Assembly (NCBI GenBank): GCA_030549795.1
Contig: JAUQQO010000009.1
Location: forward strand, 62,001 to 126,000
Length of the DNA: 64,000 bases
Direction: 5' to 3'
Origin: Pseudomonadota bacterium
Lineage (GTDB): Bacteria > Pseudomonadota > Alphaproteobacteria > Geminicoccales > Geminicoccaceae
The translations under genes were made by a program, and so were the position numbers. Shown here piece by piece: positions 185-12,921 of this stretch (position 1 is its first letter; each line of letters opens with the position of its first letter). The notes below the pieces were generated by a model, which saw only the letters and a program-made list of their open reading frames with translations, made no database searches and was not told the DNA's origin.

Positions 185-266
185 ATCCGAGGCGAGACTT
201 GTGCGCGCCGCAAGCCGCGCCTACCTGCTTGGCGCGGGTGGGCGAACCGCAAGAGAGGACGTGGCG

Positions 267-1028
267 ATGGCGGTCTCTTGGCGGCCTTGGATCCACAAGC
301 GCTACCAGCTCGACAAAATGTCCCTGCGCGAGCTCGTAATCGCCTATTTCACTCATTATTCCATCATCGTCTATTATCTGCTCGCCTCGCTCTCGCTCGC
401 TGCTGCGATCCGCTGGGCCGAGAATTGGACGGGACCGCTTCTGGCAGTCGGGCTTACCCTGCTCGTCTACCCCTTCGCGGAATATCTCTTGCACCGCTTC
501 GTGCTGCACAGCCGCTTCCTCTACCGCTCGCCGCTCACGGCACGGATCTGGAAGCGCATCCACTACGACCACCACAGCGATCCGCACGATCTCTCGGTGC
601 TGTTCGGGGCGCTTTACACCACGCTTCCGACCATCGCGCTTTTGGCTTTGCCCTTGGGCTGGCTGGTCGGCGGTGCGGCGGGAGCGGCGAGCGCCTTTGC
701 CACTGGCTTGTTGCTGTTCGCCGGCTACGAGTTCTGCCACTGCGTCCAGCACCTGCCGTTTACGCCTAAGAACCGGTGGCTGCGTGAGATCAAAAAGCGC
801 CATCTCGCCCACCACTTCCACAACGAGCAGGGCAACTTCGGAATCACGAGCGGGATCGTGGATCGGCTCTTCGGCACCTTTTACGAGCACCCGCGCGCCG
901 TGCCCAAGAGTCCGACCACCTTCAACCTCGGCTATACGGGCGAAGAGCGCAGGCGTTATCCCTGGGTGGCCCTGTCCTCGCCGAGCGAGAGCGAGCTCGC
1001 CCGTCGTCGGAGCCGGCGTGCCGCGTAG
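267..1028 (+). CDS. fatty acid hydroxylase / sterol desaturase family membrane protein
   Basis: A 253-residue integral membrane di-iron hydroxylase. The family's histidine clusters are present: H76-H81 (HRFVLH), H99-H103 (HYDHH), H158-H162 (HCVQH) and H179-H185 (HLAHHFH), separated by hydrophobic segments around residues 28-48, 55-74 and 115-155. The ATG at 267 is preferred over an upstream ATG at 201 because AGAGAGGA sits just before it. The 3' end overlaps the next gene by 11 bases. Its place at the head of a ceramide synthesis locus suggests hydroxylation of the long-chain base or the N-acyl chain of a sphingolipid; this is inference, and carotenoid or other lipid substrates are possible for this superfamily. 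Confidence 0.85.
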   Translation: MAVSWRPWIHKRYQLDKMSLRELVIAYFTHYSIIVYYLLASLSLAAAIRWAENWTGPLLAVGLTLLVYPFAEYLLHRFVLHSRFLYRSPLTARIWKRIHYDHHSDPHDLSVLFGALYTTLPTIALLALPLGWLVGGAAGAASAFATGLLLFAGYEFCHCVQHLPFTPKNRWLREIKKRHLAHHFHNEQGNFGITSGIVDRLFGTFYEHPRAVPKSPTTFNLGYTGEERRRYPWVALSSPSESELARRRSRRAA

Positions 1029-2172
1029 CGACGCGCGTCCCGTCGTCGTTGAGCGGGTGGAAGGCCGCAGGGGCCTTGTGCGCTTCCTCGCCGTGCCGGA
1101 TGCGCTCTACCGTGACGATCCGAATTGGATCAAACCGCTCGATTTCGAGCGGCGGGAACATCTGAACCCGGCTAAGAATCCCTTTCTTTCCCGCATCACC
1201 ATGGCCCTCTTCATCGCCCGACGGGGAGACCGCGACGTCGGGCGCATCTCCGCGCAGGTCAATCACGCCCACCTCGAGCGCTACGGTGATGCCACCGGCC
1301 ATTTCGGCTTCTTCGAAACCGAAGACGACCCGCAAGTGGCGGCTGCCCTCGTGCGCGCCGCCGAGAGCTGGCTGCGCGCGCAGGGACTGCGGCGGATTGC
1401 CGGCCCCTTCGATCCCTCGATCAACGACAGCTGCGGGCTGCTCGTCGAAGGCTTCGAGCGGCCGCCGAGCATCATGATGGGCCACCACCGGCCGTGGTAC
1501 GCGACGAGACTCGAGGAACTCGGCTTTCGCAAGGAGAAGGATCTTTATTGTTATTGGTTCGACTTCGAAAGACCTCTGCCGGCTGAAGCGGAAACCTTGC
1601 TCGCGCGGGCTCGCCGCTCGGCTCGCTTGACCGTGCGCGCGATCGACATGCGCCGTTATGTCGACGAGATCCGCACGATTTGCGACATTTTCAACGACGC
1701 CTGGTCCGAGAACTGGGGCTTCCTGCCCTTCCGCGAAGAGGAAGCGCTCTATCTTGCGCGCACCATCCGGCCACTTGTGCGCGCGCAGGATTTCGCCATC
1801 GCCGAGGTCGACGGCACGCCCGCCGCCATGGTGGTCGTTCTCCCCAACCTCAACCTCGCGATCCGCGACCTCAAGGGGCGCCTGTTGCCCTGGGGTTGGG
1901 CGAAGCTCTTGTGGCGGCTGAAAGTGCGCGGCATCCCGGAATGGCGCCTGCCGCTTTTGGGGGTGCGCAAGGCCTTTCAGCGCGGACCGCTCGGGGCGGC
2001 GCTCGCGCTCGCTGTGCTCGACCACATCCGCCGCGCGCACGCCGACCAAGGGATCCGCGGCGTCGAGCTCTCCTGGATCCTCGAGGACAACCGTCGCGTC
2101 CAGGCGATCATCGAACTGTCCGGCGCGAGGCGGTACAAGACCTACCGGATCTACGCAAAGGACATCGGGTGA
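1018..2172 (+). CDS. bcerS: bacterial ceramide synthase-like GNAT-fold N-acyltransferase
   Basis: A 384-residue soluble acyl-CoA N-acyltransferase-fold protein of the type often labelled 'dATP pyrophosphohydrolase' or GNAT in alphaproteobacteria. The family includes Caulobacter bCerS (CC_1154), which N-acylates the long-chain base in bacterial ceramide synthesis (established knowledge, recalled). The conserved-looking core runs through GPFDPSINDSCGLL, a MGHHRPWY stretch and the C-terminal ELSWILEDNR segment. GTG at 1018 is chosen as start, since frame content upstream of it is the hydroxylase gene in another frame; CGGAG precedes it. It overlaps the hydroxylase by 11 bases and the next gene by 4 (GTGA). 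Linkage to spt and cerR homologues supports the role. Confidence 0.75.
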   Translation: MPRSDARPVVVERVEGRRGLVRFLAVPDALYRDDPNWIKPLDFERREHLNPAKNPFLSRITMALFIARRGDRDVGRISAQVNHAHLERYGDATGHFGFFETEDDPQVAAALVRAAESWLRAQGLRRIAGPFDPSINDSCGLLVEGFERPPSIMMGHHRPWYATRLEELGFRKEKDLYCYWFDFERPLPAEAETLLARARRSARLTVRAIDMRRYVDEIRTICDIFNDAWSENWGFLPFREEEALYLARTIRPLVRAQDFAIAEVDGTPAAMVVVLPNLNLAIRDLKGRLLPWGWAKLLWRLKVRGIPEWRLPLLGVRKAFQRGPLGAALALAVLDHIRRAHADQGIRGVELSWILEDNRRVQAIIELSGARRYKTYRIYAKDIG

Positions 2173-2984
2173 AGGAACCTTCTGCGATCACCGCTGTGGT
2201 GCTGGCCGGCAGCCGCTCCGGTGAGGCCGATCCGGTTGCGCGCGCCGCTGGTGTCGCCGCCAAATGTCTGGCTCCGGTCGCCGGGCGGCCGATGGTCGAA
2301 CATGTGCTCGCGGCCCTGCTCGCCCACCCCAACATCGCAACCGTGATCCTCATCGCCGATCCCGAGCTCGGGCTCGAACGGCTGCGCGGCTTCGCCTCCG
2401 CCTTCGCATGCGGCCGCATCCGCCTGCGCCGGCCGGGCCCGAGCCCGGCTTCGAGCCTGCTCGCCGTCCTCGACGAGCGCGCAGATGAGCCGCTTTTCGT
2501 CACCACCGCCGATCATCCCCTCCTCTCCCCCGCCCTCCTCGACCTGTTCTTCGCTGCGGCGCGCTCATGCAAAGCCGATCTCGTCGCCGCCGTCGCCCCG
2601 CAAGCCGCCGTCGCGGCCGTGGCACCTGCGACCCGTCGCACCTGGTGGCGGTTCCGCGACGGTCGCTTTTCCGGCGCCAATCTCTTCTGGCTCGCCGGGG
2701 CCGCGGCACGTCCGGCGCTCACCTTTTGGCAGCGGGTCGAACGCGAGCGCAAACGGCCCTGGCGCATCGTGCGCATGATCGGCTTGGGCGACCTCCTCTT
2801 ACACCTCGCGCGCCTTCTCACCCTCGAGCAGGCGGCCGCGCGTGCCTCGCGCCGTCTCGGCTGCCGGATCGCCGTTGTCCCCCTCCTCGCGGGCGAGGCG
2901 GCGATCGACGTCGACACCCCCGATGATCTCGCCCTCGTCGAGGCCATCTTGTCCCGACGGACGGCGCTCGGAGTCGCGCCGTGA
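2169..2984 (+). CDS. MobA-like NTP transferase (candidate lipid headgroup nucleotidyltransferase)
   Basis: A 271-residue NTP_transf_3-type nucleotidyltransferase. The N-terminal VLAGSRSGEADPVA loop and the K32 region (AAKCLAPVAGRPM) match the nucleotide-binding start of the family. A TTADHPLL motif at 112-119 gives the metal-binding aspartate, and the C-terminal IDVDTPDDL is typical. GTG at 2169 overlaps the bCerS stop as GTGA. Caulobacter uses a protein of this fold (CpgD, recalled as a phosphoglycerate cytidylyltransferase) to build ceramide diphosphoglycerate, and a comparable role here is a reasonable inference from context. MobA itself is less likely because the gene sits in a lipid locus and has a long insertion around 120-170. 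Confidence 0.75.
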   Translation: MKEPSAITAVVLAGSRSGEADPVARAAGVAAKCLAPVAGRPMVEHVLAALLAHPNIATVILIADPELGLERLRGFASAFACGRIRLRRPGPSPASSLLAVLDERADEPLFVTTADHPLLSPALLDLFFAAARSCKADLVAAVAPQAAVAAVAPATRRTWWRFRDGRFSGANLFWLAGAAARPALTFWQRVERERKRPWRIVRMIGLGDLLLHLARLLTLEQAAARASRRLGCRIAVVPLLAGEAAIDVDTPDDLALVEAILSRRTALGVAP

Positions 2985-3910
2985 GCCGCGTGTTCCGGCT
3001 CGCGCATCTAACCGATGTGCACTTGGGCCCTCTGCCGCGACCGCGGCCGGCCGAGCTGTGCTCCAAGCGCATCACCGGCTTTTTGTCCTGGCAGCTTCGC
3101 CGCCGCTTCCGACACCGGGCCGAAGTGCTCGCCGCGACGCTCGCCGCACTGGCCGAGGAACAGCCCGACCACACGGTGGTCACGGGCGATCTCGTCAACA
3201 TCGCGCTGCCCGACGAGTTCGCGGCCGCCCGGCGCTGGCTCGAGCGGCTCGGGCCGCCCGAGCGCGTGACGGTGATCCCCGGCAACCACGACGCCTATGT
3301 CCCGGGCGTCGCCGAAGCCCATTGGCCCCTCTGGCAACCCTACATGGCCGGGGCGGCAGCCCCGCGCGACTTTCCCTTCCTCCGACGCATCGGCCCCCTC
3401 GTGCTCATCGGACTTTCGAGCGCTGTACCGCGGCCTTGGGGGGATGCCGCAGGAGCGCTCGGCAGCGATCAACTCGAGCGGCTTTCCGCATGCTTGGCAG
3501 CGCTTGGGGAAAGTCGGCTCCTGCGCGTGCTCCTCGTCCACCATCCGCCCGTGTTGGGCTGGAGCCCGAAGCGCAAGGCGCTGCTCGACGCTGCCGAGCT
3601 GCGCGCGCGGCTTGCCCGCGAGCCGGTCGATCTTATCCTGTGCGGCCACGACCATAGGCTCGCCTGCGGAGCCGTCCCCGGTCCCTGTGGCCCGATCCCG
3701 GTGCTTTGCGGACCGTCCGCGTCGTTGATGGCCAAGGAGCGAGACCGGCGCGGCGGCGCTGTGCTCATCACGCTTGCCCCCCAAGCCGGAAGCCCGGGCT
3801 GGACGATCACCGCATGCGCGCTGCGCTTCGATCCCGCCACGCGCAAGATCGTGAAGGAAGAGCTCGTGCTTGCATCCGAGGCTGCGACCACGCCTGCCTG
3901 GTCGCGGTGA
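2981..3910 (+). CDS. metallophosphoesterase (calcineurin-like) family protein
   Basis: A 309-residue phosphoesterase with the full metal-binding motif set: D12-x-H14 (HLTDVHL), G69-D70 (TGDLVN), GNHD at 101-104, an HHPP stretch and a C-terminal GHDHR. These coordinate two metals in the family. No signal peptide is seen, so it should act in the cytoplasm. It starts with GTG overlapping the previous stop by 4 bases, so it is translationally coupled inside the ceramide unit. A role in trimming a phosphorylated lipid or nucleotide intermediate of headgroup synthesis is possible, but substrate cannot be read from sequence. Confidence 0.85.
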   Translation: MSRVFRLAHLTDVHLGPLPRPRPAELCSKRITGFLSWQLRRRFRHRAEVLAATLAALAEEQPDHTVVTGDLVNIALPDEFAAARRWLERLGPPERVTVIPGNHDAYVPGVAEAHWPLWQPYMAGAAAPRDFPFLRRIGPLVLIGLSSAVPRPWGDAAGALGSDQLERLSACLAALGESRLLRVLLVHHPPVLGWSPKRKALLDAAELRARLAREPVDLILCGHDHRLACGAVPGPCGPIPVLCGPSASLMAKERDRRGGAVLITLAPQAGSPGWTITACALRFDPATRKIVKEELVLASEAATTPAWSR

Positions 3911-3994: not shown

Positions 3995-5200
3995 ATGCGC
4001 ATGAGCCGTCTCGACCGCTATGTGATCGGCCAGGTCGTGCGCCCGATGGCCGCGATCGTCGTGATCGCGCTCTTGGCACTTCTCGCCGAGCGCACCTTGC
4101 GGGTACTCGACATCGTTTTGGGCTGGCGCGGGAGCCTACTCGTTCTCTTCGAGATGTTGAGCTATCTTGTTCCGCACTATATGGGGATTGCTCTGCCGGC
4201 GAGTTTTTTCATCGCCATTCTTCTCGTCTTCTCGCGCATGTCGCGTGATGGCGAGCTTGATGGCATGTTCGCCGCGGGCTTCGGTCTGCACCGAATCCTT
4301 TTGCCCCTCTTCGCGATCGCCGCCGTCGTCCTCGTACTCAACGGTCTGATCGTGAGCCATCTCCAGCCCTTTAGCCGCTACGCCTATCGGGCAGCGCTCT
4401 TCGCCCTCTCCAACGTCTCGTTCCTCACGCTGTTGCGCGAGCGAACCTTCCTCACCTTGGGTGAGACTACCTATCGCGTCGAAACGCTCGCCCCGGAGCG
4501 CGATCGCTTCACCGGGCTTCTCCTCTTCAGCCGCCTGCCGGGTGGCGAGACGCTCACCATCACCGCCCGCCGCGGCCGGATCCTTCCCGCAGAAGGCCAA
4601 AGGCCGATCCTCCTCGATCTCGAGGACGGGGTCCAGCAGTTCGTGCCGAGCCCGCGCGCCGGCGCGAGCGACGCGCCGCCCGCGACGGTGCGTTTTCGCA
4701 GCTTTCGCACCGATGTGCGCGGCGGCGAGCCGAAACCGTTCCGCCCGCGGGGAGCTGATGAGCGAGAGCTCACCTTACCGGAGCTGTGGTCGGCGCTCGC
4801 GCACCCGCCCAAGGGCATCGATCCCTCCGAGATCGCCGCCGAGTTCCACGGACGGCTCGCCCGCATCGCATCGACCTTGCTCCTGCCGCTCGTTGCCCTG
4901 CCCCTGGCGATCGCCCGCCGACGGGCGAAACGCTCCTACGGCATCATCGTCGGGATCGCTCTGCTCGTCGGCTACAACCAGCTCTTGCAGTTCGGCGAAT
5001 CGCTTGCTGACGACGGCAAGATCTCGCCCTGGCTGGGTCTGTGGGTGCCGTTTTTCATGTTCTGCTTGCTCGGCCTTTTGCTCGTGTTTTGGAAGACCAC
5101 GCGCGTGCCGCGAGTGCGCGGCACCAGTCGCTTCGATCTTCTGGTCGAGCGCATCGAGCAGAGTCTGGCACAACGTTTTGGCCGTGGAGCCGAACCGTGA
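3995..5200 (+). CDS. LptF/LptG (YjgP/YjgQ) family permease, LptF-like
   Basis: A 401-residue inner-membrane permease. Three N-terminal hydrophobic segments (about 17-40, 50-75 and 100-122) are followed by a hydrophilic, periplasmic-type domain (about 150-285) and three C-terminal membrane segments (about 295-380), the YjgP/YjgQ layout. Classical LptF pairs with LptG and LptB to extract LPS. Here the pair lies inside a ceramide locus, without the surA/pdxA/lptD neighbours often seen in proteobacteria, so the cargo may be a sphingolipid. ATG codons at 3995 and 4001 are both possible; GGAA fits the second slightly better. The stop overlaps the next start as GTGA. Confidence 0.85.
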   Translation: MRMSRLDRYVIGQVVRPMAAIVVIALLALLAERTLRVLDIVLGWRGSLLVLFEMLSYLVPHYMGIALPASFFIAILLVFSRMSRDGELDGMFAAGFGLHRILLPLFAIAAVVLVLNGLIVSHLQPFSRYAYRAALFALSNVSFLTLLRERTFLTLGETTYRVETLAPERDRFTGLLLFSRLPGGETLTITARRGRILPAEGQRPILLDLEDGVQQFVPSPRAGASDAPPATVRFRSFRTDVRGGEPKPFRPRGADERELTLPELWSALAHPPKGIDPSEIAAEFHGRLARIASTLLLPLVALPLAIARRRAKRSYGIIVGIALLVGYNQLLQFGESLADDGKISPWLGLWVPFFMFCLLGLLLVFWKTTRVPRVRGTSRFDLLVERIEQSLAQRFGRGAEP

Positions 5201-6303
5201 GCCGGATCTCGCGCTATCTCAACCGCGTTTACCTCGTGCGCTTTTTGGTCGTGCTCGTGGCGGCAAGCGGCTTTGCCGTGCTCTTCGATCTCTTGGATGC
5301 CGGGCCGAGGGTGGCGCGCCGGCTGCACAGCATCCAGTGGCCGCTTTTGTACTATACGATTTTGCGCTTGCCGAGCTTGCTCAGCGAGCTCTTGCCCATG
5401 GTCGCGCTTGTAGCCGGTCTTCTCGCCGCAACCGATCTGTTGCGCTTGCGCGAGTTGATCGCCCTGTGGGGGGCGGGTCTGTCGCGCCTTGCGCTGCTTG
5501 TCCGCTTATGGCCGGCCATACTCCTGATCGCCGCCTTCAAATTCGTCATCGACGACCGCTTGATACCCCTTTCCGTGCCCGCTCTGCGCGCACTGGGCGT
5601 GACCGAGATCCGCGGCTCGGGTCTGCCGCGCGGTGATGCCCTTTGGGTTCGGCTCGATGGCGAAATCCTGCGGCTGCCGGTGGAAGCCGCGGCTCAGAAA
5701 CAGCCCCGCGATCTCATGATCCTGCGTCTTGACAGCGAGGGACGGCTGATCGAGCGGCTGGATGCCGCCTCCGCGCAACCCGGCGCCGAGTCCTGGCTCT
5801 TGCGCGGCGTCACAAGACGACCCGCTGCGGCGAGCCCTCCCGAACAGCTCGCCGAGCTCGTCTGGCCTATCCGGCTCGATATCGAACAGCTTGCCACCCT
5901 TTCCAAGCCCGCGCGCGAGCTCACCTTGCCGGAGCTCATCGCGGTCATCTCGGCCGATGCCTTTGGCGTGTCCGGTACCGAGGGTCACGAGACCTGGCTG
6001 CACGCTCGGATCGCAGGTATGCTCGGTCTTGCGGCGATCGTCGCGTTGCCGGTGACCCTCGTCCGCCGGGTGAATCGGACGGGCGCCACGCTTGCGATCT
6101 TCGCGCGCGGACTTGCGATCGGTTTCGTTTACGTGATCGGCAACGGTCTGCTTTTGGCCCTGGGCGAGCTCGGGATGATGGCGCCTGCGCTCGCGGCATG
6201 GACTGGTCCCGTGCTCTTGGCGGTGGGCTTGCTCGTGGGTGCGGGCTTGTTCGAGCCCCGACGCGGCCGCACACCCACGGCTCTTTCGCGGGTGCACTCA
6301 TGA
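5197..6303 (+). CDS. LptF/LptG (YjgP/YjgQ) family permease, LptG-like
   Basis: A 368-residue partner permease with the same architecture: N-terminal membrane segments near residues 12-32, 48-72 and 90-112, a middle hydrophilic domain to about 270, then three C-terminal segments. GTG at 5197 overlaps the preceding stop (GTGA), and its own stop overlaps the next ATG (ATGA), so the two permeases and the lipid kinase are coupled. It should form a heterodimer with the LptF-like protein, driven by an LptB-type ATPase that is not in this window. Whether it moves LPS or a ceramide derivative is open. Confidence 0.85.
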   Translation: MSRISRYLNRVYLVRFLVVLVAASGFAVLFDLLDAGPRVARRLHSIQWPLLYYTILRLPSLLSELLPMVALVAGLLAATDLLRLRELIALWGAGLSRLALLVRLWPAILLIAAFKFVIDDRLIPLSVPALRALGVTEIRGSGLPRGDALWVRLDGEILRLPVEAAAQKQPRDLMILRLDSEGRLIERLDAASAQPGAESWLLRGVTRRPAAASPPEQLAELVWPIRLDIEQLATLSKPARELTLPELIAVISADAFGVSGTEGHETWLHARIAGMLGLAAIVALPVTLVRRVNRTGATLAIFARGLAIGFVYVIGNGLLLALGELGMMAPALAAWTGPVLLAVGLLVGAGLFEPRRGRTPTALSRVHS

Positions 6304-7268
6304 GCCGGACGCCTGCGATCGGTTTCGTCAACAACCGCCGCAGCGAGCGCAACCGCCGCGGCATGGCCGATCTCGAACCGATCCTCGCCGCGCATCCCGA
6401 GATCGTCCGCTTCGACTTCACCGAGGCCAACTCCTTGCGCGCGATCGCCCGCGAGCTCGGGCGCCTCAAACCCGAGCTCATCCTCATCAATGGCGGCGAT
6501 GGGACGGTACAGGGGATCCTCACCGAGCTGCTCGAGGAACGACCGCTCGATCCGGTGCCGCCGATCGCCATCCTCCCGCGCGGCATGGCTAATATGACCG
6601 CTGCCGATTGTGGGCTCCGCCAACGCGGCCCGCGCGCGCTCAAGCGGCTGCTCGCAGTCACCCGCCGCGGCCTTCTCGATCGCGTCACGGTGCGCCGGCG
6701 CGTGCTGCGCGTGGCCAATCTCGCCGACGGCAGCGTCCAGCACGGCATGTTCTTGGGGGCGGCCGGCATCACCGATGCCATCCAGCTGTGCAAGAGCCGC
6801 GTGCACAGCCTGGGCCTTAAGGGCGAGGTCGCCCATCTCGTCACCCTCACGCGGCTGTTGTGGGCGTTCGCGCGCGGTCGCCGCCCGCCCGGCATGCTCG
6901 AAGGCGAAAAGGTGGCCATCCGCTTCGAGGACGGCGAAGTGCGCGAAGGGCGCCAGCTCCTGTTGCTCGCGACCACGCTCGACCGCCTCGTGCTCGCCTC
7001 GCGGCCGTTTTGGAACTGCTTCGCCCACCCCTTGCGCTTCACCGCCATCCGCCACCCCCCGGAAGGGCTGGTGCGCCGCGCGCTCTCCGTGCTCTACGGT
7101 GGCGATCGCCGCGCGCTGCCAAAGGACAGCTATTTCAGCCGCGGCGGCGTTCGCGTCGAGCTCGAGCTCGAACGCGAGATCACCATCGACGGCCAATTCT
7201 ATCGACCCGAAGCGGGTCGACCCCTCATCGTCACTGCCCCTGATGAGCTGCGTTTCGTGCGGCTATGA
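6300..7268 (+). CDS. diacylglycerol kinase-fold lipid kinase (candidate ceramide kinase)
   Basis: A 322-residue cytoplasmic lipid kinase. The N-terminal catalytic domain carries the GGDGT nucleotide-binding motif at 65-69 (INGGDGTV) and the LPRGMANM segment that corresponds to the family's LP.GT.N loop. The C-terminal half has the beta-rich lipid-binding domain ending in an EITIDGQ stretch. Caulobacter ceramide kinase CpgB belongs to this fold and sits next to spt (recalled). Position between the permeases and an uncharacterised protein that abuts spt supports ceramide phosphorylation. Diacylglycerol or undecaprenol phosphorylation remains possible. Confidence 0.8.
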   Translation: MSRTPAIGFVNNRRSERNRRGMADLEPILAAHPEIVRFDFTEANSLRAIARELGRLKPELILINGGDGTVQGILTELLEERPLDPVPPIAILPRGMANMTAADCGLRQRGPRALKRLLAVTRRGLLDRVTVRRRVLRVANLADGSVQHGMFLGAAGITDAIQLCKSRVHSLGLKGEVAHLVTLTRLLWAFARGRRPPGMLEGEKVAIRFEDGEVREGRQLLLLATTLDRLVLASRPFWNCFAHPLRFTAIRHPPEGLVRRALSVLYGGDRRALPKDSYFSRGGVRVELELEREITIDGQFYRPEAGRPLIVTAPDELRFVRL

Positions 7269-8173
7269 GCGCGCGCGCCGACCCCATCCTCGCCTTCGTC
7301 GCCGAGGAGACCGCCCAATCCGTACCCGCCCCGGTGCACGCGCTCGCCCAAGCGGCTCGGGCGCGCTTCGGACCGGCGATTTGCGCGGTGCTTTTCTACG
7401 GCAGCTGCCTGCGTGATGGTGTGCTCGAGGATCGGCTCGCCGATTTCTACCTCCTAAGTACCGATGCAGCTGCGGTGACCCCGAACCGCTGGCGCGCGAT
7501 CTTGCTCGAGCTCTTGCCCCCTGATGTGTACCGCATGACGCTTTCCCTCAACGGCCAGATCCTGCGCGCCAAAGTCTCGGTCGTGCCGCTGTGCGTACTC
7601 GAGCGCGCGGTCGAACCCTCAACGCGCGAACCCTATTTTTGGGCCCGGCTGGCCCAGCCGACGGCGCTTCTGTGGGCTTCGGATGCGGAGATCACCGCGC
7701 GCGTGCAGCGACTTCTTGCGCGAGCGGTGCGCACCTTCGCGGCCGAGACGCTGCCGCTTCTGCGCCCCCCAATCGATCCCTGTGCGCTCTTCGAGCGCGG
7801 CTTTTTCGAGAGCTACCGCACCGAGCTGCGCGCCGAAACTCCTGAGCGGGCGCGCACGATCGTGGCGAGCGCCGTCGCGCGGTACCGGCAGCTGGGCGCG
7901 CTTCTCCTCGCCGAGTTGCCGCGACCGGACGAACAGGCCCACGCGCGCGCCTTGCGCTTGTGGGCGCAGCGGCGCTGGCTCGGCCGGCTCCGCGCGCTCG
8001 CGCGCTTGGCCAAGGCCGCCTCGACCTTCGAGGACGCCGCCGACTATGTCGCCTGGAAGATCGAGCGGCATGCCGGCGTGCGGGTGGAGCTGGCTCCCTG
8101 GCAGCGGCGTTTTCCGCGCCTCGCCGGGCTTCTCTTGCTGCCGCGGCTGTTGCGGCGCGGGGCGGTGCGCTGA
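7265..8173 (+). CDS. uncharacterised protein with nucleotidyltransferase-like N-terminus
   Basis: A 302-residue protein whose family I do not recognise with certainty. Residues 40-65 read AVLFYGSCLRDGVL then RLADFYLL, which resembles the GS-x(n)-D-x-D core of polymerase-beta-fold nucleotidyltransferases, but the second acidic residue of the pair is replaced (D60-F-Y). The remainder is helical and Arg/Leu-rich, with no signal peptide; a leucine-rich C-terminus (RLAGLLLLPRLLRRG) could associate with membrane. It overlaps the lipid kinase by 4 bases and ends directly against the spt stop codon. Position matches the Caulobacter gene between the ceramide kinase and spt, which I recall as part of the ceramide-phosphoglycerate genes. 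Confidence 0.65.
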   Translation: MSARADPILAFVAEETAQSVPAPVHALAQAARARFGPAICAVLFYGSCLRDGVLEDRLADFYLLSTDAAAVTPNRWRAILLELLPPDVYRMTLSLNGQILRAKVSVVPLCVLERAVEPSTREPYFWARLAQPTALLWASDAEITARVQRLLARAVRTFAAETLPLLRPPIDPCALFERGFFESYRTELRAETPERARTIVASAVARYRQLGALLLAELPRPDEQAHARALRLWAQRRWLGRLRALARLAKAASTFEDAADYVAWKIERHAGVRVELAPWQRRFPRLAGLLLLPRLLRRGAVR

Positions 8174-9385
8174 CTATTCGGCTGCGACCCGCGCCGTAAG
8201 CTGCCGCAACTCTTCGGCCAGACGCGCAAAGCGCGCGAGCACCTCCTCGATCTGCTCTGGCGTGTGCGCAGCCGAAACACTGCCGCGCAGAAGACACACC
8301 CCGCCGGGCGTGCCGGGCGGAAGAGCGAGATTGACGTACACGCCGAGCTCGAGCAGGCGGTTCCAGGCGAACACGGTGGTGCGCTCGTCGGGCAGACGAA
8401 TGGAGAGGATCGGCCCGGGAGGCGCGCAGAGCGTGAAGCCCAAGGCGCTGAGCCCGGCGTGCAACCGCTGCGCGTTCTCCCAGATTCGCGCCCGCAGTTC
8501 GGGATGCGCGGCGATCTTGGCGAGCGCCGTGCGCACGGTGGCGATCGTGGCTGGTCCCGGGGACGCGGTGAACATGTAAGGGCGCGCGGCTACCCGCAAA
8601 AGCTCGAAGCGGGGATGGTCGGACACGGCGAAGCCGCCGATCGCCCCGAGCGACTTCGAAAAGGTGCCGACGATGACGTCGACCTCGGCCTCAACACCCT
8701 GTGCCTCCGCCACCCCCCGCCCCTTGGCGCCGAACACGCCCATCGCGTGGGCCTCGTCGACGAGCAGGAAGGCGCCGTGGCGTTTTTTGACCGCCACGAT
8801 CTCGCGCAGCCGGGCGACATCGCCGAGCATCGAATAAAGACCCTCGACGATGATGAGCCGGCACCCCCCGGGATTGGGATTGCGCTCGAGCCGTCGGTCG
8901 AGATCGTCGGGATCGTTGTGGCGAAAGCGCACAACCGTCGCGCCCGACAGCCGGCAGCCGTCGAAGATCGAGGCGTGCCAGTCGGAATCGACGAAGATGA
9001 CGTCTTTGGGCCCAGCGAGGCCGGAGATGGTGGCGAGATTGGCTTGATAGCCGGTGGTGAAGACGATCGCGTGCGCGCGGCCCATAAAGGCGGCGATTTC
9101 GGCTTCGAGCGCGCGATGGGAAGCGTAAGTGCCGTTGGCGATGCGCGAGCCCGTGGTCCCGGTACCCAAACGGCGCAGCGCCGCGCAGCCGGCTTCGATG
9201 CACTCGGGATCGAAGGTAAGACCGAGATAGTTGTTGGTGCCGACCAGGATCGTGCGCCGCCCGCGGATGGTCGCCTCGCAGGGACCGTGAAGATCCTCGA
9301 TCTCGAGATCAAAGGGATCGGCCCCGGCGCCGAGGAGCTGGCTGCGCCGCTGGGCCAAGAGCTCGTATTTGTCGAAGATGTCCAT
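8174..9385 (-). CDS. spt: serine palmitoyltransferase (alpha-oxoamine synthase family)
   Basis: A 403-residue PLP enzyme that condenses serine with an acyl thioester to 3-ketosphinganine, the first step of ceramide synthesis. Visible landmarks are GTNNYLGL at 49-56, GTGTTGSRIANGTY around 74-87, DEAHAMG at 210-216 and the Schiff-base lysine K244 in GTFSKSLGAIGGF. Length and motifs fit the oxoamine synthases; KBL and AONS are relatives, but the adjacent acyl carrier protein, acyl-AMP ligase and CerR-like reductase point to Spt. It is last in the minus-strand unit, one base after the ACP stop, and its TAG stop abuts the stop of the convergent plus-strand unit. Confidence 0.9.
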   Translation of the reverse strand: MDIFDKYELLAQRRSQLLGAGADPFDLEIEDLHGPCEATIRGRRTILVGTNNYLGLTFDPECIEAGCAALRRLGTGTTGSRIANGTYASHRALEAEIAAFMGRAHAIVFTTGYQANLATISGLAGPKDVIFVDSDWHASIFDGCRLSGATVVRFRHNDPDDLDRRLERNPNPGGCRLIIVEGLYSMLGDVARLREIVAVKKRHGAFLLVDEAHAMGVFGAKGRGVAEAQGVEAEVDVIVGTFSKSLGAIGGFAVSDHPRFELLRVAARPYMFTASPGPATIATVRTALAKIAAHPELRARIWENAQRLHAGLSALGFTLCAPPGPILSIRLPDERTTVFAWNRLLELGVYVNLALPPGTPGGVCLLRGSVSAAHTPEQIEEVLARFARLAEELRQLTARVAAE

Positions 9386-9386
9386 C

Positions 9387-9644
9387 TCAGCTCCGTGCTG
9401 CGAGCCGCCGCGCGACGAGATCGACGAGATCGCCCAACGTCACGAGGTCGGCGATCTCGTTGACCGGTATGTCGATGCCGTAGCGCTCCTCGATCTCCAT
9501 GACGAGGTCCATAGCCGCCACCGAATCGATCGAGAGGTCGCTTACGAGTTCGGTCGCGCGCGTCAACTGCGCCCCGGCCGGTGCAAACCGTGCCACGAGC
9601 GCGCTGATCTCGACGAGCAGACGATCGGGGTCGGGGGTGCTCAT
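9387..9644 (-). CDS. dedicated acyl carrier protein of the ceramide locus
   Basis: An 85-residue acyl carrier protein. The phosphopantetheine attachment site is S41 in DLSIDSVAAMDLV, with Val in place of the usual Leu after the serine. Acidic helices EIEERYGIDIP follow, as in ACPs. ATG at 9644 is the sensible start; a longer frame to 9743 would run into the preceding gene. It lies between cerR and spt homologues and probably delivers the acyl chain loaded by the adjacent acyl-AMP ligase to Spt. Confidence 0.9.
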   Translation of the reverse strand: MSTPDPDRLLVEISALVARFAPAGAQLTRATELVSDLSIDSVAAMDLVMEIEERYGIDIPVNEIADLVTLGDLVDLVARRLAARS

Positions 9645-9687
9645 GGCCGGTGCATGCCGGCTTGCGCGCACGCGCGCAACCCCTCGC

Positions 9688-10632
9688 TTAAAGCCAGCCC
9701 TGGGCGCGGTACCATGAGAGCGCACGGGCGAAGCCCTCGCCAAAGTCGACGCGCGGCCGCCAGCCCGGCGGGAGCGGCGCAGAGACGACCCAATCGGGAT
9801 GGAACAGCTCTGCGACCTTGCCGCGCGAGAGGCGCGGCGGACGACCGCGGGGGCGCGCCCCGAGCTCGGCCAAGAACGCCGCTGCGAGCATGAGCCGGCG
9901 CGGTAAGGGCAGCACGCGCACAGGCTTGCCTAACCGTTGGGCGGCCTGCTCGGCGAGATCGCGCCAGCCGTAGCCGCCGGGACGACCATCGTCCGGTTCC
10001 AGGAGCGAAGCCTGCACCTCCCTTCGGGTGAGGAGCGCTGCGACGAGTTCGGCCAGATCCTCGACGTAGATCAAGGAGAACCGGTTATCGGGTGCCTTGG
10101 GCGCGAGCAGAAAGCCGCGCGCGAGCTGGGCGATCAGCGGCAACGTGGCGCGATCGCCCGGCCCGTACACAGCCGGAGGACGCACGACGATCGGCTGAAG
10201 GCGATCGGCACCGGCCTCGAGTGCCCGCTCCGCCTCGCGCTTGCTCCAGGCATAGGGCGAGACGTGCGGAGCGCGCGCGGCAAGAGAGGAGATCAACAGG
10301 AAAGGCACCTCTTCGGCCCACTGGCCGGCAGCCGCGACGAGCCGCGCCGTACCCTCGACATTGGCGCGGCGGAACTCCTCAGCCGCGGAAGCGGCGATCA
10401 CGCCCGCGCCATGGACGACGGCGCCGGCCCCTAAAACGAGGACGCGCAGCGCCTCGGGCTGGTCGAGGCTGCCGCGCACTTGGTCGACACCGAGAGCCTC
10501 AAGCCGCGCATCCTCGCGGCGGACCAGCGCACGTACGCGAAGACCGTGCGCTCGAAGCCGGGCTGCGATGTGAAAACCGACAAAACCGGTGGCGCCCGTC
10601 AGCGCCACGAGCTCGGGATCACCCCGCGCCAC
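9688..10632 (-). CDS. cerR: NAD(P)-dependent ceramide reductase (SDR/epimerase fold)
   Basis: A 314-residue extended short-chain dehydrogenase. The Rossmann motif TGATGFVG starts at about residue 12, and the catalytic Tyr and Lys are in YAWSKRE, preceded by a serine-rich LLISSLAAR strand. In Caulobacter the enzyme in this position, CerR, reduces the 3-keto group of the sphingoid or ceramide intermediate (recalled). It starts with GTG, 15 bases after the acyl-AMP ligase, and is followed 43 bases later by the ACP. A sugar-epimerase role is less likely given the neighbours. Confidence 0.8.
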   Translation of the reverse strand: MARGDPELVALTGATGFVGFHIAARLRAHGLRVRALVRREDARLEALGVDQVRGSLDQPEALRVLVLGAGAVVHGAGVIAASAAEEFRRANVEGTARLVAAAGQWAEEVPFLLISSLAARAPHVSPYAWSKREAERALEAGADRLQPIVVRPPAVYGPGDRATLPLIAQLARGFLLAPKAPDNRFSLIYVEDLAELVAALLTRREVQASLLEPDDGRPGGYGWRDLAEQAAQRLGKPVRVLPLPRRLMLAAAFLAELGARPRGRPPRLSRGKVAELFHPDWVVSAPLPPGWRPRVDFGEGFARALSWYRAQGWL

Positions 10633-10647
10633 GGTCGCGATCCGTGA

Positions 10648-12438
10648 TCAGCTCACCCGGGCAAGGGCCTCGGCCTCGTCGTTCGCCGCACGCTCTGGCA
10701 CCACCGCGCGCGCGGCGATGTCGCGGATCGCCCCCGAGAGATAGCTCGCGCGCGCCGCCGCTCGGCTGAGCTTGCCCGAGGTCGTGTAGGTCAAGGAGCG
10801 GGGCGGAGCCAACACGAGCTCGCATTCGGTGCCCGCCTGCCGGTTGATGACAGCCTGCACCTCGCGGCGGAACTCGGCCTGGCGCACCGGATCGGTGGTG
10901 CGACATTGCACGACCACGACGATGCGCTCGCGCTCGTCCTCACCGGTGACGGCAAAAGCGGCAACGTCACCCGGGCGCACACCCGGCAGCCGTTCCACCG
11001 CCCACTCGAGGTCCTGAGGCCAGATGTTGCGTCCGTTGATGATGATGAGGTCTTTGCTGCGGCCGGTCACGACGAGTTCGCCATCCACGAGATAGCCCAT
11101 ATCGCCGGTATCGAGCCAGCCGTCTTCGAGCAGGACCGCACGCGTCGCTTCCGGGCTGCGGAAATAGCCGGTCATCAGGCTCGGGCCCTTGATGCACACG
11201 CGTCCGATGCGACGTTCGGGCAGCCGACGTCCGTGTTCGTCGCGGATCTCGACGGCATAGCCGGGCATCGGCCGGCCGCAGATGGCAAAGGCACGGGTGC
11301 GCAACGCGCGGGGACCGGCGGGCAGCGCGAGCCGCCGCCGCTCGAACGCGTCACCGAGCTCGACCACATCGGTGCGCACGCCCACACCGAGCGGCGCGAA
11401 GGTGACGGCCAGCGTCGCTTCGGCGAGGCCATAGGAAGCTACAAAGGCCCTCGCATCGAAGCCCGCTGGGGCGAAGGCCTCGGCGAACTCGGCAAGGGCC
11501 TTGGGCCGGATCATCTCGCCGCCGATCCCGGCAACGCGCCAGCGCGACAGGTCGAGCCCGCTCAGATCGCTGCTCCCCACCCGACGCGCGCACAGCTCAT
11601 AGCCAAAGGTAGGGGCAAAAGAGATGGTGCCGCCGCTTGCGGAGAGCACTTTCAGCCACACGAGCGGCCGACAGGCGAAGCTCGCGGTGGCGATGTAATC
11701 GACGCTCACCTGGTTGAGAACGGGCGTCAGGCAACAGCCAACGAGGCCCATATCGTGGTAGAGCGGCAACCAGGAGGTACAGCGGTCGCCGGGCTCAAGC
11801 GCAACACCGTCTTCGGCGATGGCGCGGGCGTTGGCGGTGATCGCCGCCTGCGTGACCAACACCCCGCGCGGAAAACTGGTGCTGCCCGAGGAATATTGGA
11901 TGTAACAGGGCTCTTCGGGTCCCAAGGGAACGAGTTCGCCCTCTACCGGAGAAAGCGCGGCGAGCTGCTCATAGGTGCCGACCCAGCCGACCTCGGTGCC
12001 CACCGCCGCCTCTTCGAGCTGGGCGCGATAGGCTTCGGATGCGATCGCAACCCGCGCCCCCGAATTGGCGAGCATGCCGCGCAGCCGCTCGACATGGGTG
12101 CGATGGGTGCCGAGGCTCAAGGCGAGCGGCAAGGGCACCGGAACGAGTCCGGCATATTGGCAGGCGAAAAAGGCGAGCAGGAACTCCGGCCGCGTCTCGG
12201 CCAAAATCGCCACCCGCTCGAGCCGCGGAAGGCCGAGCGCGAGAAGACGGCGGGCCCAGTTGCGCGCACCCGCCTCGAGCGCGCGATAGGGCAAGACCTC
12301 CTTAAGCTCACCCCGCGGCCCGTAGAAGTTCATCCCCGTCTCGCCGCGCGCGGCATATTCGAGCCCCTCGAGGAGGGTCCGAAAGCCCCGCGTGCGAAAC
12401 GGCAGATCGGCATTCACGGTCGGCGTCGGTTGAACCAT
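10648..12438 (-). CDS. fatty acyl-AMP ligase / acyl-ACP synthetase
   Basis: A 596-residue ANL-superfamily enzyme of the fatty acyl-AMP ligase type. The adenylate-forming signature YSSGSTSFPRGV lies at 182-193, the SWLPLYHDMGLVG core follows, and the C-terminal domain has a LDTGDMGYL and GRSKDLIIINGRNIWPQD hinge. FAAL-type enzymes load acyl chains onto ACP, which suits the ACP two genes downstream. ATG at 12438 with upstream AAGGACGACC is chosen over a longer frame. It is the first gene of the minus-strand ceramide unit, so its promoter should lie in 12439-12921. Confidence 0.88.
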   Translation of the reverse strand: MVQPTPTVNADLPFRTRGFRTLLEGLEYAARGETGMNFYGPRGELKEVLPYRALEAGARNWARRLLALGLPRLERVAILAETRPEFLLAFFACQYAGLVPVPLPLALSLGTHRTHVERLRGMLANSGARVAIASEAYRAQLEEAAVGTEVGWVGTYEQLAALSPVEGELVPLGPEEPCYIQYSSGSTSFPRGVLVTQAAITANARAIAEDGVALEPGDRCTSWLPLYHDMGLVGCCLTPVLNQVSVDYIATASFACRPLVWLKVLSASGGTISFAPTFGYELCARRVGSSDLSGLDLSRWRVAGIGGEMIRPKALAEFAEAFAPAGFDARAFVASYGLAEATLAVTFAPLGVGVRTDVVELGDAFERRRLALPAGPRALRTRAFAICGRPMPGYAVEIRDEHGRRLPERRIGRVCIKGPSLMTGYFRSPEATRAVLLEDGWLDTGDMGYLVDGELVVTGRSKDLIIINGRNIWPQDLEWAVERLPGVRPGDVAAFAVTGEDERERIVVVVQCRTTDPVRQAEFRREVQAVINRQAGTECELVLAPPRSLTYTTSGKLSRAAARASYLSGAIRDIAARAVVPERAANDEAEALARVS

Positions 12439-12921
12439 GGTCGTCCTTCGCGCGGTTGAGCGACCCTGAAGCCCGTTTTCCCTTTTGTTCGCCGCTCGAC
12501 AGTTGCGCAAAGCGCTCGCTTCGCAGCCACCGCCGCTCGGCTAGTCTTCGGACGCGTTCGAGTTCACGCACCGCGGACGGCCCGGCGCACAAGGGCGAGC
12601 GGACGCCGCGGGCCCAGCTTTCGCCTCATCGGCGCAACCGATCATAGAAGGCGGCCAGCGCTTCGCTATTCAACTCGTGTTGCAGTTTGTTTCAAACCAG
12701 CCCGATTCGTTGCTTTCGGGTCACAGATCGACAGCGAGTTGCATGCGCAGCGCTCAAGCCCGGGCAATCGGCACAGCTCCTGCTCGCGCAAGGCCGCACG
12801 CGGGCGCAACGCCCGTCCCCCGCCCTCCCCGCGCCAGCCGCGCGCCCTGCCGGCGCGAGTTGCGCGATCGGCTGCGATCCGGTGAGCTCTTGCCGGCAGC
12901 ATCCTCGGTATGGAGGGAGCA
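12439..12921. other. intergenic region between divergent ceramide unit and UPF0173 gene
   Basis: This 483-base stretch separates two divergent genes and must hold both promoters. The only ordered structure I see is a pair of short inverted repeats at 12671-12697. Open frames through it have atypical composition and no ribosome site. I found no convincing promoter hexamers or terminator. Confidence 0.5.
12671..12697. promoter_or_regulatory. twin short inverted repeats, possible operator
   Basis: CAACtcgtGTTG at 12671-12682 is followed two bases later by GTTTGtttCAAAC at 12685-12697. Both arms pair perfectly. They lie in an A+T-richer patch of the divergent intergenic region between the ceramide minus-strand unit and the UPF0173 gene. 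Adjacent palindromes of this size resemble binding sites for dimeric repressors; no regulator gene is nearby, so the function is only suggested. Confidence 0.3.

Follow-up and report, generated by a model that had tools for sequence, protein, structure and literature searches.

A Probable Sphingolipid-Dedicated LptF/LptG Pair in a Ceramide Gene Cluster of a Geminicoccaceae Bacterium

Organization of the Locus

The window analyzed here is a 64,000-nucleotide stretch of contig JAUQQO010000009.1 (assembly GCA_030549795.1, positions 62,001 to 126,000 of the forward strand), carried by a 3.16-Mb draft genome in 57 contigs that is 99.96% complete and belongs to a host of the family Geminicoccaceae. 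At positions 3995-6303 it encodes an LptF/LptG-type permease pair surrounded by ceramide genes, and comparison strongly supports the view that this pair is dedicated to a sphingolipid (SL) rather than to lipopolysaccharide (LPS). A first-pass annotation of the window had placed such a pair here, translationally coupled to a lipid kinase, lying between ceramide genes and without lptB, lptC, or lptD in the window, and all of these points hold. Two PF03739 proteins occupy the position, the lptG and kinase genes overlap, and the flanking genes encode a hydroxylase, a GNAT protein, the kinase, serine palmitoyltransferase (SPT), an SDR-type reductase, and an AMP-ligase. The genome's own LptB, LptA, and LptD used as queries give no match in the 64 kb (E 1e-3), and the LptC family PF06835 has no match anywhere in the genome. 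The features are as follows, the pair being given first.

3995..5200, plus strand: lptF, SL type; start ATG 3995 or ATG 4001; PF03739, 198 bits; SL-type clade
5197..6303, plus strand: lptG, SL type; start GTG 5197; PF03739, 139 bits; GTGA overlap; SL-type clade
201..1028, plus strand: fatty-acid hydroxylase; PF04116, 77 bits
1018..2172, plus strand: GNAT-family protein, candidate bacterial ceramide synthase (bCerS, gene cerS); PF00583, 21.3 bits against a cut-off of 20.7; named from gene order
2169..2984, plus strand: nucleotidyltransferase-like protein; NCBIfam models of the MobA/IspD group match weakly, each under cut-off
2981..3910, plus strand: metallophosphoesterase, directly 5′ of lptF; PF00149
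6300..7268, plus strand: DAGK-type lipid kinase; PF00781, 50 bits; ATGA overlap; gene order
7265..8173, plus strand: 302-aa protein of no Pfam or NCBIfam family; conserved beside the kinase
8174..9385, minus strand: SPT (spt); NCBIfam NF047599, 606 bits against a cut-off of 500
9387..9743, minus strand: acyl carrier protein (acp), 118 aa; read from the list of open reading frames (ORFs); conserved between spt and cerR
9688..10632, minus strand: SDR-type reductase, candidate ceramide reductase (cerR); PF01370, 75.7 bits; named from gene order
10648..12510, minus strand: AMP-ligase, candidate acyl-ACP synthetase (aasR); PF00501, 198.6 bits; named from gene order

The plus-strand genes form a single run from the hydroxylase to the 302-aa protein, and spt, acp, cerR, and aasR lie on the minus strand, tail to tail with it. 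Translation of lptG begins at GTG 5197, inside a GTGA that also contains the lptF stop, and that of the kinase at ATG 6300, inside an ATGA that contains the lptG stop; the ATGA overlap recurs between the kinase and the 302-aa gene at 7265; further 5′, GTGA overlaps are found at 2169 (nucleotidyltransferase-like gene) and 2981 (phosphoesterase gene). Unlike these overlapping neighbors, the phosphoesterase gene and the lptF start are separated by 84 bases. The nucleotidyltransferase-like gene is conserved across related loci, and the metallophosphoesterase is found upstream of lptF in most of them. The names cerS, cerR, aasR, and acp are based on a domain or ORF together with gene order, and bCerS in particular is a name taken from gene order with no specific model behind it. 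Gene order makes the kinase the likely equivalent of CC_1160, the ceramide kinase of Caulobacter, and the 302-aa protein the likely equivalent of CC_1161.

The LptF and LptG Proteins and Their Relatives

Both proteins exceed the PF03739 (LptF_LptG) cut-off of 27.9, yet fall short of the NCBIfam equivalog cut-offs of TIGR04407 and TIGR04408 (215.3 against 230 bits for LptF, 170.8 against 240 bits for LptG). AlphaFold2 models of LptF and LptG (predicted local distance difference test scores of 90.7 and 89.5) show a predicted fold of membrane helices with a periplasmic beta-jellyroll domain, like that of solved LptF and LptG, and the best solved matches found by Foldseek are 6mit_F for LptF (E 5.7e-16) and 6mjp_G for LptG (E 4.5e-16). 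When each is compared with 18 LPS-type proteins from Alphaproteobacteria, LptF shows 16-23% identity and LptG 19-24%.

Among the best 80 of 217 LptF relatives, spt, cerS, or cerR lies nearby in 69, other genes of the cluster in 10, and none in 1, and canonical lpt neighbors are found in 0/80. The placement of lptF and lptG in the ceramide cluster is thus far beyond chance. An IQ-TREE phylogeny of 34 LptF and 33 LptG sequences separates the SL type, in both halves, from pairs linked to lptD and to a gene that we take to be pepA, with ultrafast bootstrap values of 98-100. A larger FastTree phylogeny (110 LptF and 107 LptG) resolves four exact groups, namely LPS-type LptF (18 sequences, support 1.0), SL-type LptF (92, 0.963), LPS-type LptG (18, 0.999), and SL-type LptG (89, 0.937). 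In both trees the two proteins of the window sit in the SL-type clades and outside the LPS-type clades. For six LptF and six LptG rows of the SL groups, the stretch examined has no ceramide-label gene, so these were placed by the tree and not by the label. Five two-pair genomes in which both pairs were typed (G009, G046, G047, G130, and G131) carry one SL-type and one LPS-type pair each.

The trees were built without LptF/LptG pieces of 250 aa or less (IQ-TREE) or under about 290-300 aa (FastTree) and without the partial locus L004, and the FastTree set also omits 20 locus ids, mostly duplicate genomes. It further leaves out L106, with which the split between LptF and LptG and the SL-type LptF clade are not recovered. 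In L106, from a Hyphomicrobiales metagenome-assembled genome, both genes of the pair are LptF-like and no ceramide gene was found in its 21-kb stretch; this pair is possibly a further LptF/LptG variant.

The two types share the glutamates of the coupling helices that dock on LptB. The position of LptF E87 is conserved in 92/92 SL-type and 18/18 LPS-type proteins, and that of LptG E86 in 89/89 and 18/18. In E. coli these glutamates matter for LptB2FG assembly (PMC5082905, partial text), and their invariance in both types suggests LptB docking for the SL pair too. The types differ at the LptG columns of K40 and K41, which contact the lipid A 4′-phosphate and the inner core in an LPS-bound LptB2FG structure (PMC6744409, partial text): a basic residue stands there in 16/18 and 15/18 LPS-type proteins but in 17/89 and 10/89 SL-type proteins. 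At LptF positions 32-33, an acidic residue followed by Arg is present in 92/92 SL-type proteins versus 0/18 LPS-type alphaproteobacterial proteins, although Pseudomonas LptF also has Arg at this acidic-Arg column. Nearly all SL-type LptF proteins have an Arg-x-Arg-Gly motif at 250-253. The LptG columns of K34, R133, and R136 were viewed and left unused, as HMMER and MAFFT place K34 differently. As a separate observation, the SL-type LptG of L125 (G046) and L138 (G156) aligns to the profile as two segments, interrupted within the periplasmic portion, which may reflect a changed jellyroll domain.

A Single Pair and a Probably Altered Lpt Bridge

The genome holds exactly one PF03739 pair, that at 3995-6303, as does each of five congeners searched. 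The first-pass annotation had reasoned that a lone pair clustering with canonical LPS exporters, with other proteins exporting ceramide, would speak against a sphingolipid role; the pair is indeed the only one in the genome, but in both trees it stands apart from those exporters. LpxC, LpxB, and PF04413 were not found in this genome or in the five congeners, one of which is a one-contig genome, whereas E. coli and Caulobacter (C. vibrioides), serving as positive controls, give matches to all three, and C. vibrioides to LptC as well. PF04413 we take to be the N-terminal domain of the 3-deoxy-D-manno-octulosonic acid (Kdo) transferase KdtA/WaaA.

The annotation had also called for a genome-wide search for lptB, lptC, and lptD. 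LptB and LptD are retained, and the gene 5′ of lptB matches the LptA/LptD-N family PF03968 (79.7 bits), but LptC was not found. In L005, no lptFG was found in the slot between pepA and lptD-surA-ksgA (surA and ksgA being confirmed by Pfam), a slot that holds LptFG in G007, G009, and G022, which have LPS genes. The genes kdsD and lptA overlap in L006, and about 650-700 bases separate them in L043 and L155. Sequence comparison therefore suggests that lptC is gone from the kdsD/lptA slot, and a diverged LptC may lie elsewhere. A KpsF/GutQ-like SIS-CBS protein (kdsD-like) is kept directly 5′ of lptA (L006:6122-7171, G000:C46) despite the absence of PF04413.

Within a 40-genome set, the genomes with SPT and without LpxC carry LptD in 14/14, LptB in 13/14 (the remaining one being only 70% complete), and LptC in 2/14 (G008 and G035). 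Genome G029, which has no LpxC, SPT orthologue, or LptFG, likewise has no LptD. LptC (PF06835) was not found in 17/24 Geminicoccaceae-family genomes of this set (G000-G006, G010-G012, and G015-G021), and LptD is present in 24/24. A natural LptC-free Lpt bridge is thus possible in the Geminicoccaceae. Four members of the family (G011, G012, G016, and G021, of which G016 and G021 are 86% complete) have an LpxC-family protein (E 2e-86 to 5e-57) with LpxB and PF04413 not found; this LpxC may be an orphan, either a remnant or reused. For Geminicoccus type strains, phospholipids and an unidentified aminolipid are reported, and the available part of that source gives neither sphingolipid nor LPS chemistry (PMC9659566, partial text).

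With no other pair in the genome, with LptB and LptD kept, and with the kdsD-like protein still beside lptA, the pair could be read as the LPS exporter of the organism, merely located in a sphingolipid cluster. However, LpxC, LpxB, and PF04413 are missing from all six genomes searched, and the pair lies outside the LPS-type clade. LPS export by this pair is accordingly very unlikely in this organism, to the point of being barely credible. Of the two readings that the first-pass annotation had offered, an exporter dedicated to sphingolipid gains good support from comparison, and a route shared by LPS and sphingolipid is very unlikely here, given the missing LPS genes.

Distribution of Permease Pairs among Alphaproteobacterial Genomes

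Presence and absence were scored in 144 genomes of the class passing a completeness filter of 90%, with thresholds of E ≤ 1e-90 for SPT, 1e-20 for LpxC, and 1e-15 for PF03739. Where SPT and LpxC are both present (n = 8), seven genomes have at least four LptF/LptG matches (G046, G047, G105, G130, G131, G156, and G161). Where SPT is present and LpxC absent (n = 14), two matches are found in 13 genomes and none in one (G080), with at least four in 0/14; for G149, G157, G163, and G164 this status follows by elimination from the LpxC list. Genomes with LpxC and without SPT (n = 112) have one or two matches except for G043, and the ten with neither have none in five, two in four, and three in one. 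PF04413 agrees with LpxC in 22/22 SPT-bearing genomes, being absent from 14/14 without LpxC and present in 8/8 with it. By Fisher tests, which ignore ancestry, at least four matches are associated with the presence of both lipids' genes (7/8 versus 1/112, p 1.1e-9; 7/8 versus 0/14, p 4.7e-5), and loss of LpxC with SPT (14/22 versus 10/122, p 3.5e-8). Counted per family, at least four matches occur in 6/7 with both genes versus 0/10 with SPT and no LpxC (p = 5.7e-4).

All 12 pairs typed among the genomes with SPT and without LpxC, from 12 of the 14, are of the SL type, six by tree (G000, G005, G035, G054, G072, and G103) and six by hidden Markov model (G056, G086, G149, G157, G163, and G164); the other two genomes are G080, with no pair, and G090, in which the pair was not located. 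Two genomes with neither SPT nor LpxC, G073 and G097, carry LPS-type pairs. The genome of G080, a single contig of 5.4 Mb, has SPT and ceramide genes (L144, G080:C1:1500001-1520000), and LptF/LptG, LpxC, and PF04413 were not found in it.

The sphingolipid cargo of the SL pair is a prediction from comparison, and the cluster includes genes of no assigned function (the 302-aa protein and the nucleotidyltransferase-like protein), so another surface lipid, a glycolipid or phospholipid, might be exported, with the ceramide linkage reflecting co-regulation only. Such a cargo is unlikely in view of the linkage described above, which reaches ceramide genes in 69 and other cluster genes in 10 of the best 80 of 217 relatives, and of the co-occurrence with SPT across families.

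Relation to Known Lpt Systems

A sphingolipid role has already been proposed for the Caulobacter homologues. In Caulobacter crescentus, CC_1168, CC_1156, and CC_1155 (LptC2, LptF2, and LptG2) were suggested in 2024 to move phosphosphingolipids, transport itself not being investigated there, and orthologues of the sphingolipid cluster were noted in several proteobacteria, such as Sphingomonas wittichii and Zymomonas mobilis, as were sphingolipid-forming bacteria without LPS, such as Sphingomonas koreensis (PMC11324152, partial text). Like the pair of the window, LptF2/LptG2 lies within a ceramide cluster, and the window pair groups with other sphingolipid-locus pairs; orthology to CC_1156 and CC_1155 is presumed from gene order. 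The order in G008, with aasR-cerR-acp-spt, the kinase side, and phosphoesterase-lptF-lptG-cerS-ntp, is that of Caulobacter (PMC11324152, partial text). However, Caulobacter has LPS genes (LpxC, LpxB, PF04413, and LptC are matched in C. vibrioides) and supplies LptF2/LptG2 with LptC2 (CC_1168), whereas here the pair is alone, PF06835 has no match, and kdsD overlaps lptA.

With canonical LptB2FG of E. coli, Shigella, and Pseudomonas, the pair shares PF03739, membrane helices with a periplasmic beta domain, and the coupling-helix glutamates, but it differs in its separate clade, its scores under the equivalog cut-offs, and a genome in which lipid A genes were not found. Suppressor mutants in E. 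coli lptF (R212) form an LptC-independent six-protein Lpt bridge in which LptF contacts LptA (PMC9972910, partial text). The bridge discussed here would resemble it in working without LptC, lptC being missing from the kdsD/lptA slot, but belongs to a natural lineage, in which a diverged LptC may lie elsewhere. Within the open-licence PMC literature, the LptF2/LptG2 sphingolipid proposal was found in PMC11324152 only, and no survey linking LPS loss to the pair was found. The present comparison adds the phylogenetic split, the co-occurrence rule, and the case of LPS-less genomes that carry one SL pair, an emptied lptFG slot, and retained LptB, LptA, and LptD; no report of these was found in that literature.

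Proposed Function of the Pair

Taken together, gene content, linkage, phylogeny, co-occurrence, and predicted fold make it probable that the pair is a dedicated SL-type permease that lifts a headgroup-bearing ceramide by way of LptB, LptA, and LptD, and that it is the sole loader here. Most likely, with the ordinary LptB ATPase as its motor, the SL pair would take the ceramide out of the inner membrane on the periplasmic side and would hand it to LptA and then to LptD. Coupling to a lipid kinase suggests that the cargo is perhaps phosphorylated. Ceramide reduction in Caulobacter is periplasmic, and according to the same study a transporter had yet to be identified (PMC11087976, partial text), so extraction from the periplasmic side would suit these findings. 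Alphaproteobacteria making both lipids would mostly have a separate permease pair for each. The present Geminicoccaceae lineage appears to have lost its genes for lipid A and Kdo transfer, together with the canonical lptFG and any recognizable lptC, which would leave the SL pair as sole Lpt loader and sphingolipid as the likely sole cargo. Several alphaproteobacterial lineages, this one included, may well have dropped LPS and kept LptB, LptA, and LptD as a pure sphingolipid line with a specialized LptF/LptG, here working without LptC; this broader reading is reasonably likely. In bacteria with both lipids, the route downstream of the permeases is likely shared, judging from G009, which has both pairs with one LptD match and one LptB match, the latter count covering 52/278 candidates scored.

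Several observations weigh against this interpretation. Genome G009 is 7% contaminated, and the Fisher tests disregard ancestry. Despite having SPT, LpxC, and PF04413, G089 has two LptF/LptG matches only, which are untyped; G080 has SPT and no LptF/LptG match; and G043 has four matches and LpxC with no SPT at the threshold used, its second pair perhaps serving another use. Likewise, G010, 87% complete, has LpxC, LpxB, PF04413, and SPT, with only an SL-type pair and an untyped fragment found. Finally, the LptF column matched to Pseudomonas K33, a phosphate contact (PMC12738788, partial text), is basic in both types (LPS 16/18, SL 83/92), so the two binding sites are not wholly different. In combination with the largely non-basic K40 and K41 columns of LptG, the alignment would fit a cargo with phosphate but without the LPS core.

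The presence-absence rule, in which genomes with both lipids mostly have two pairs and those with one lipid have the matching pair, makes the sphingolipid-transport proposal concrete and testable. For biochemistry, bacteria whose genomes have one SL-type pair and no LPS genes provide a clean system. If the interpretation is true, LptF/LptG would act as a cargo module that can be exchanged on a bridge for lipids in general, and the Lpt bridge, an antibiotic target, would not be tied to LPS.

An ABC Half-Transporter Upstream of the Cluster

A fused ABC_membrane/ABC_tran (ATP-binding cassette) half-transporter lies 5′ of the hydroxylase gene (L158:7025-8695, G000:C50), beyond the window and 3.3 kb ahead of its first position; the stretch between the two has an ORF that by eye looks sulfotransferase-like and then one of 785 aa. 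A second LptB near the locus was considered from LptB-like matches of 32-35% in L009-L013 and rejected, since the matches in L009, L010, L011, and L013 are to a fused exporter-type half-transporter and that in L012 is to another gene.

The fused protein, found nearby in this genome and in those four relatives' loci, and the missing LptC, which implies a bridge at least altered, would suit a sphingolipid exporter with an ATPase or bridge other than LptB, LptA, and LptD. This arrangement is quite improbable, because the ABC protein has a membrane domain of its own and so looks like a flippase and not a partner ATPase, because the LptB-docking glutamates are invariant, and because LptD (14/14) and LptB (13/14) persist in the genomes of the 40-genome set that have SPT and no LpxC. 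For the SL pair working through LptB, LptA, and LptD, the fused half-transporter would instead be a candidate sphingolipid flippase, a role given in Caulobacter to CC_1166 (PMC11324152, partial text).

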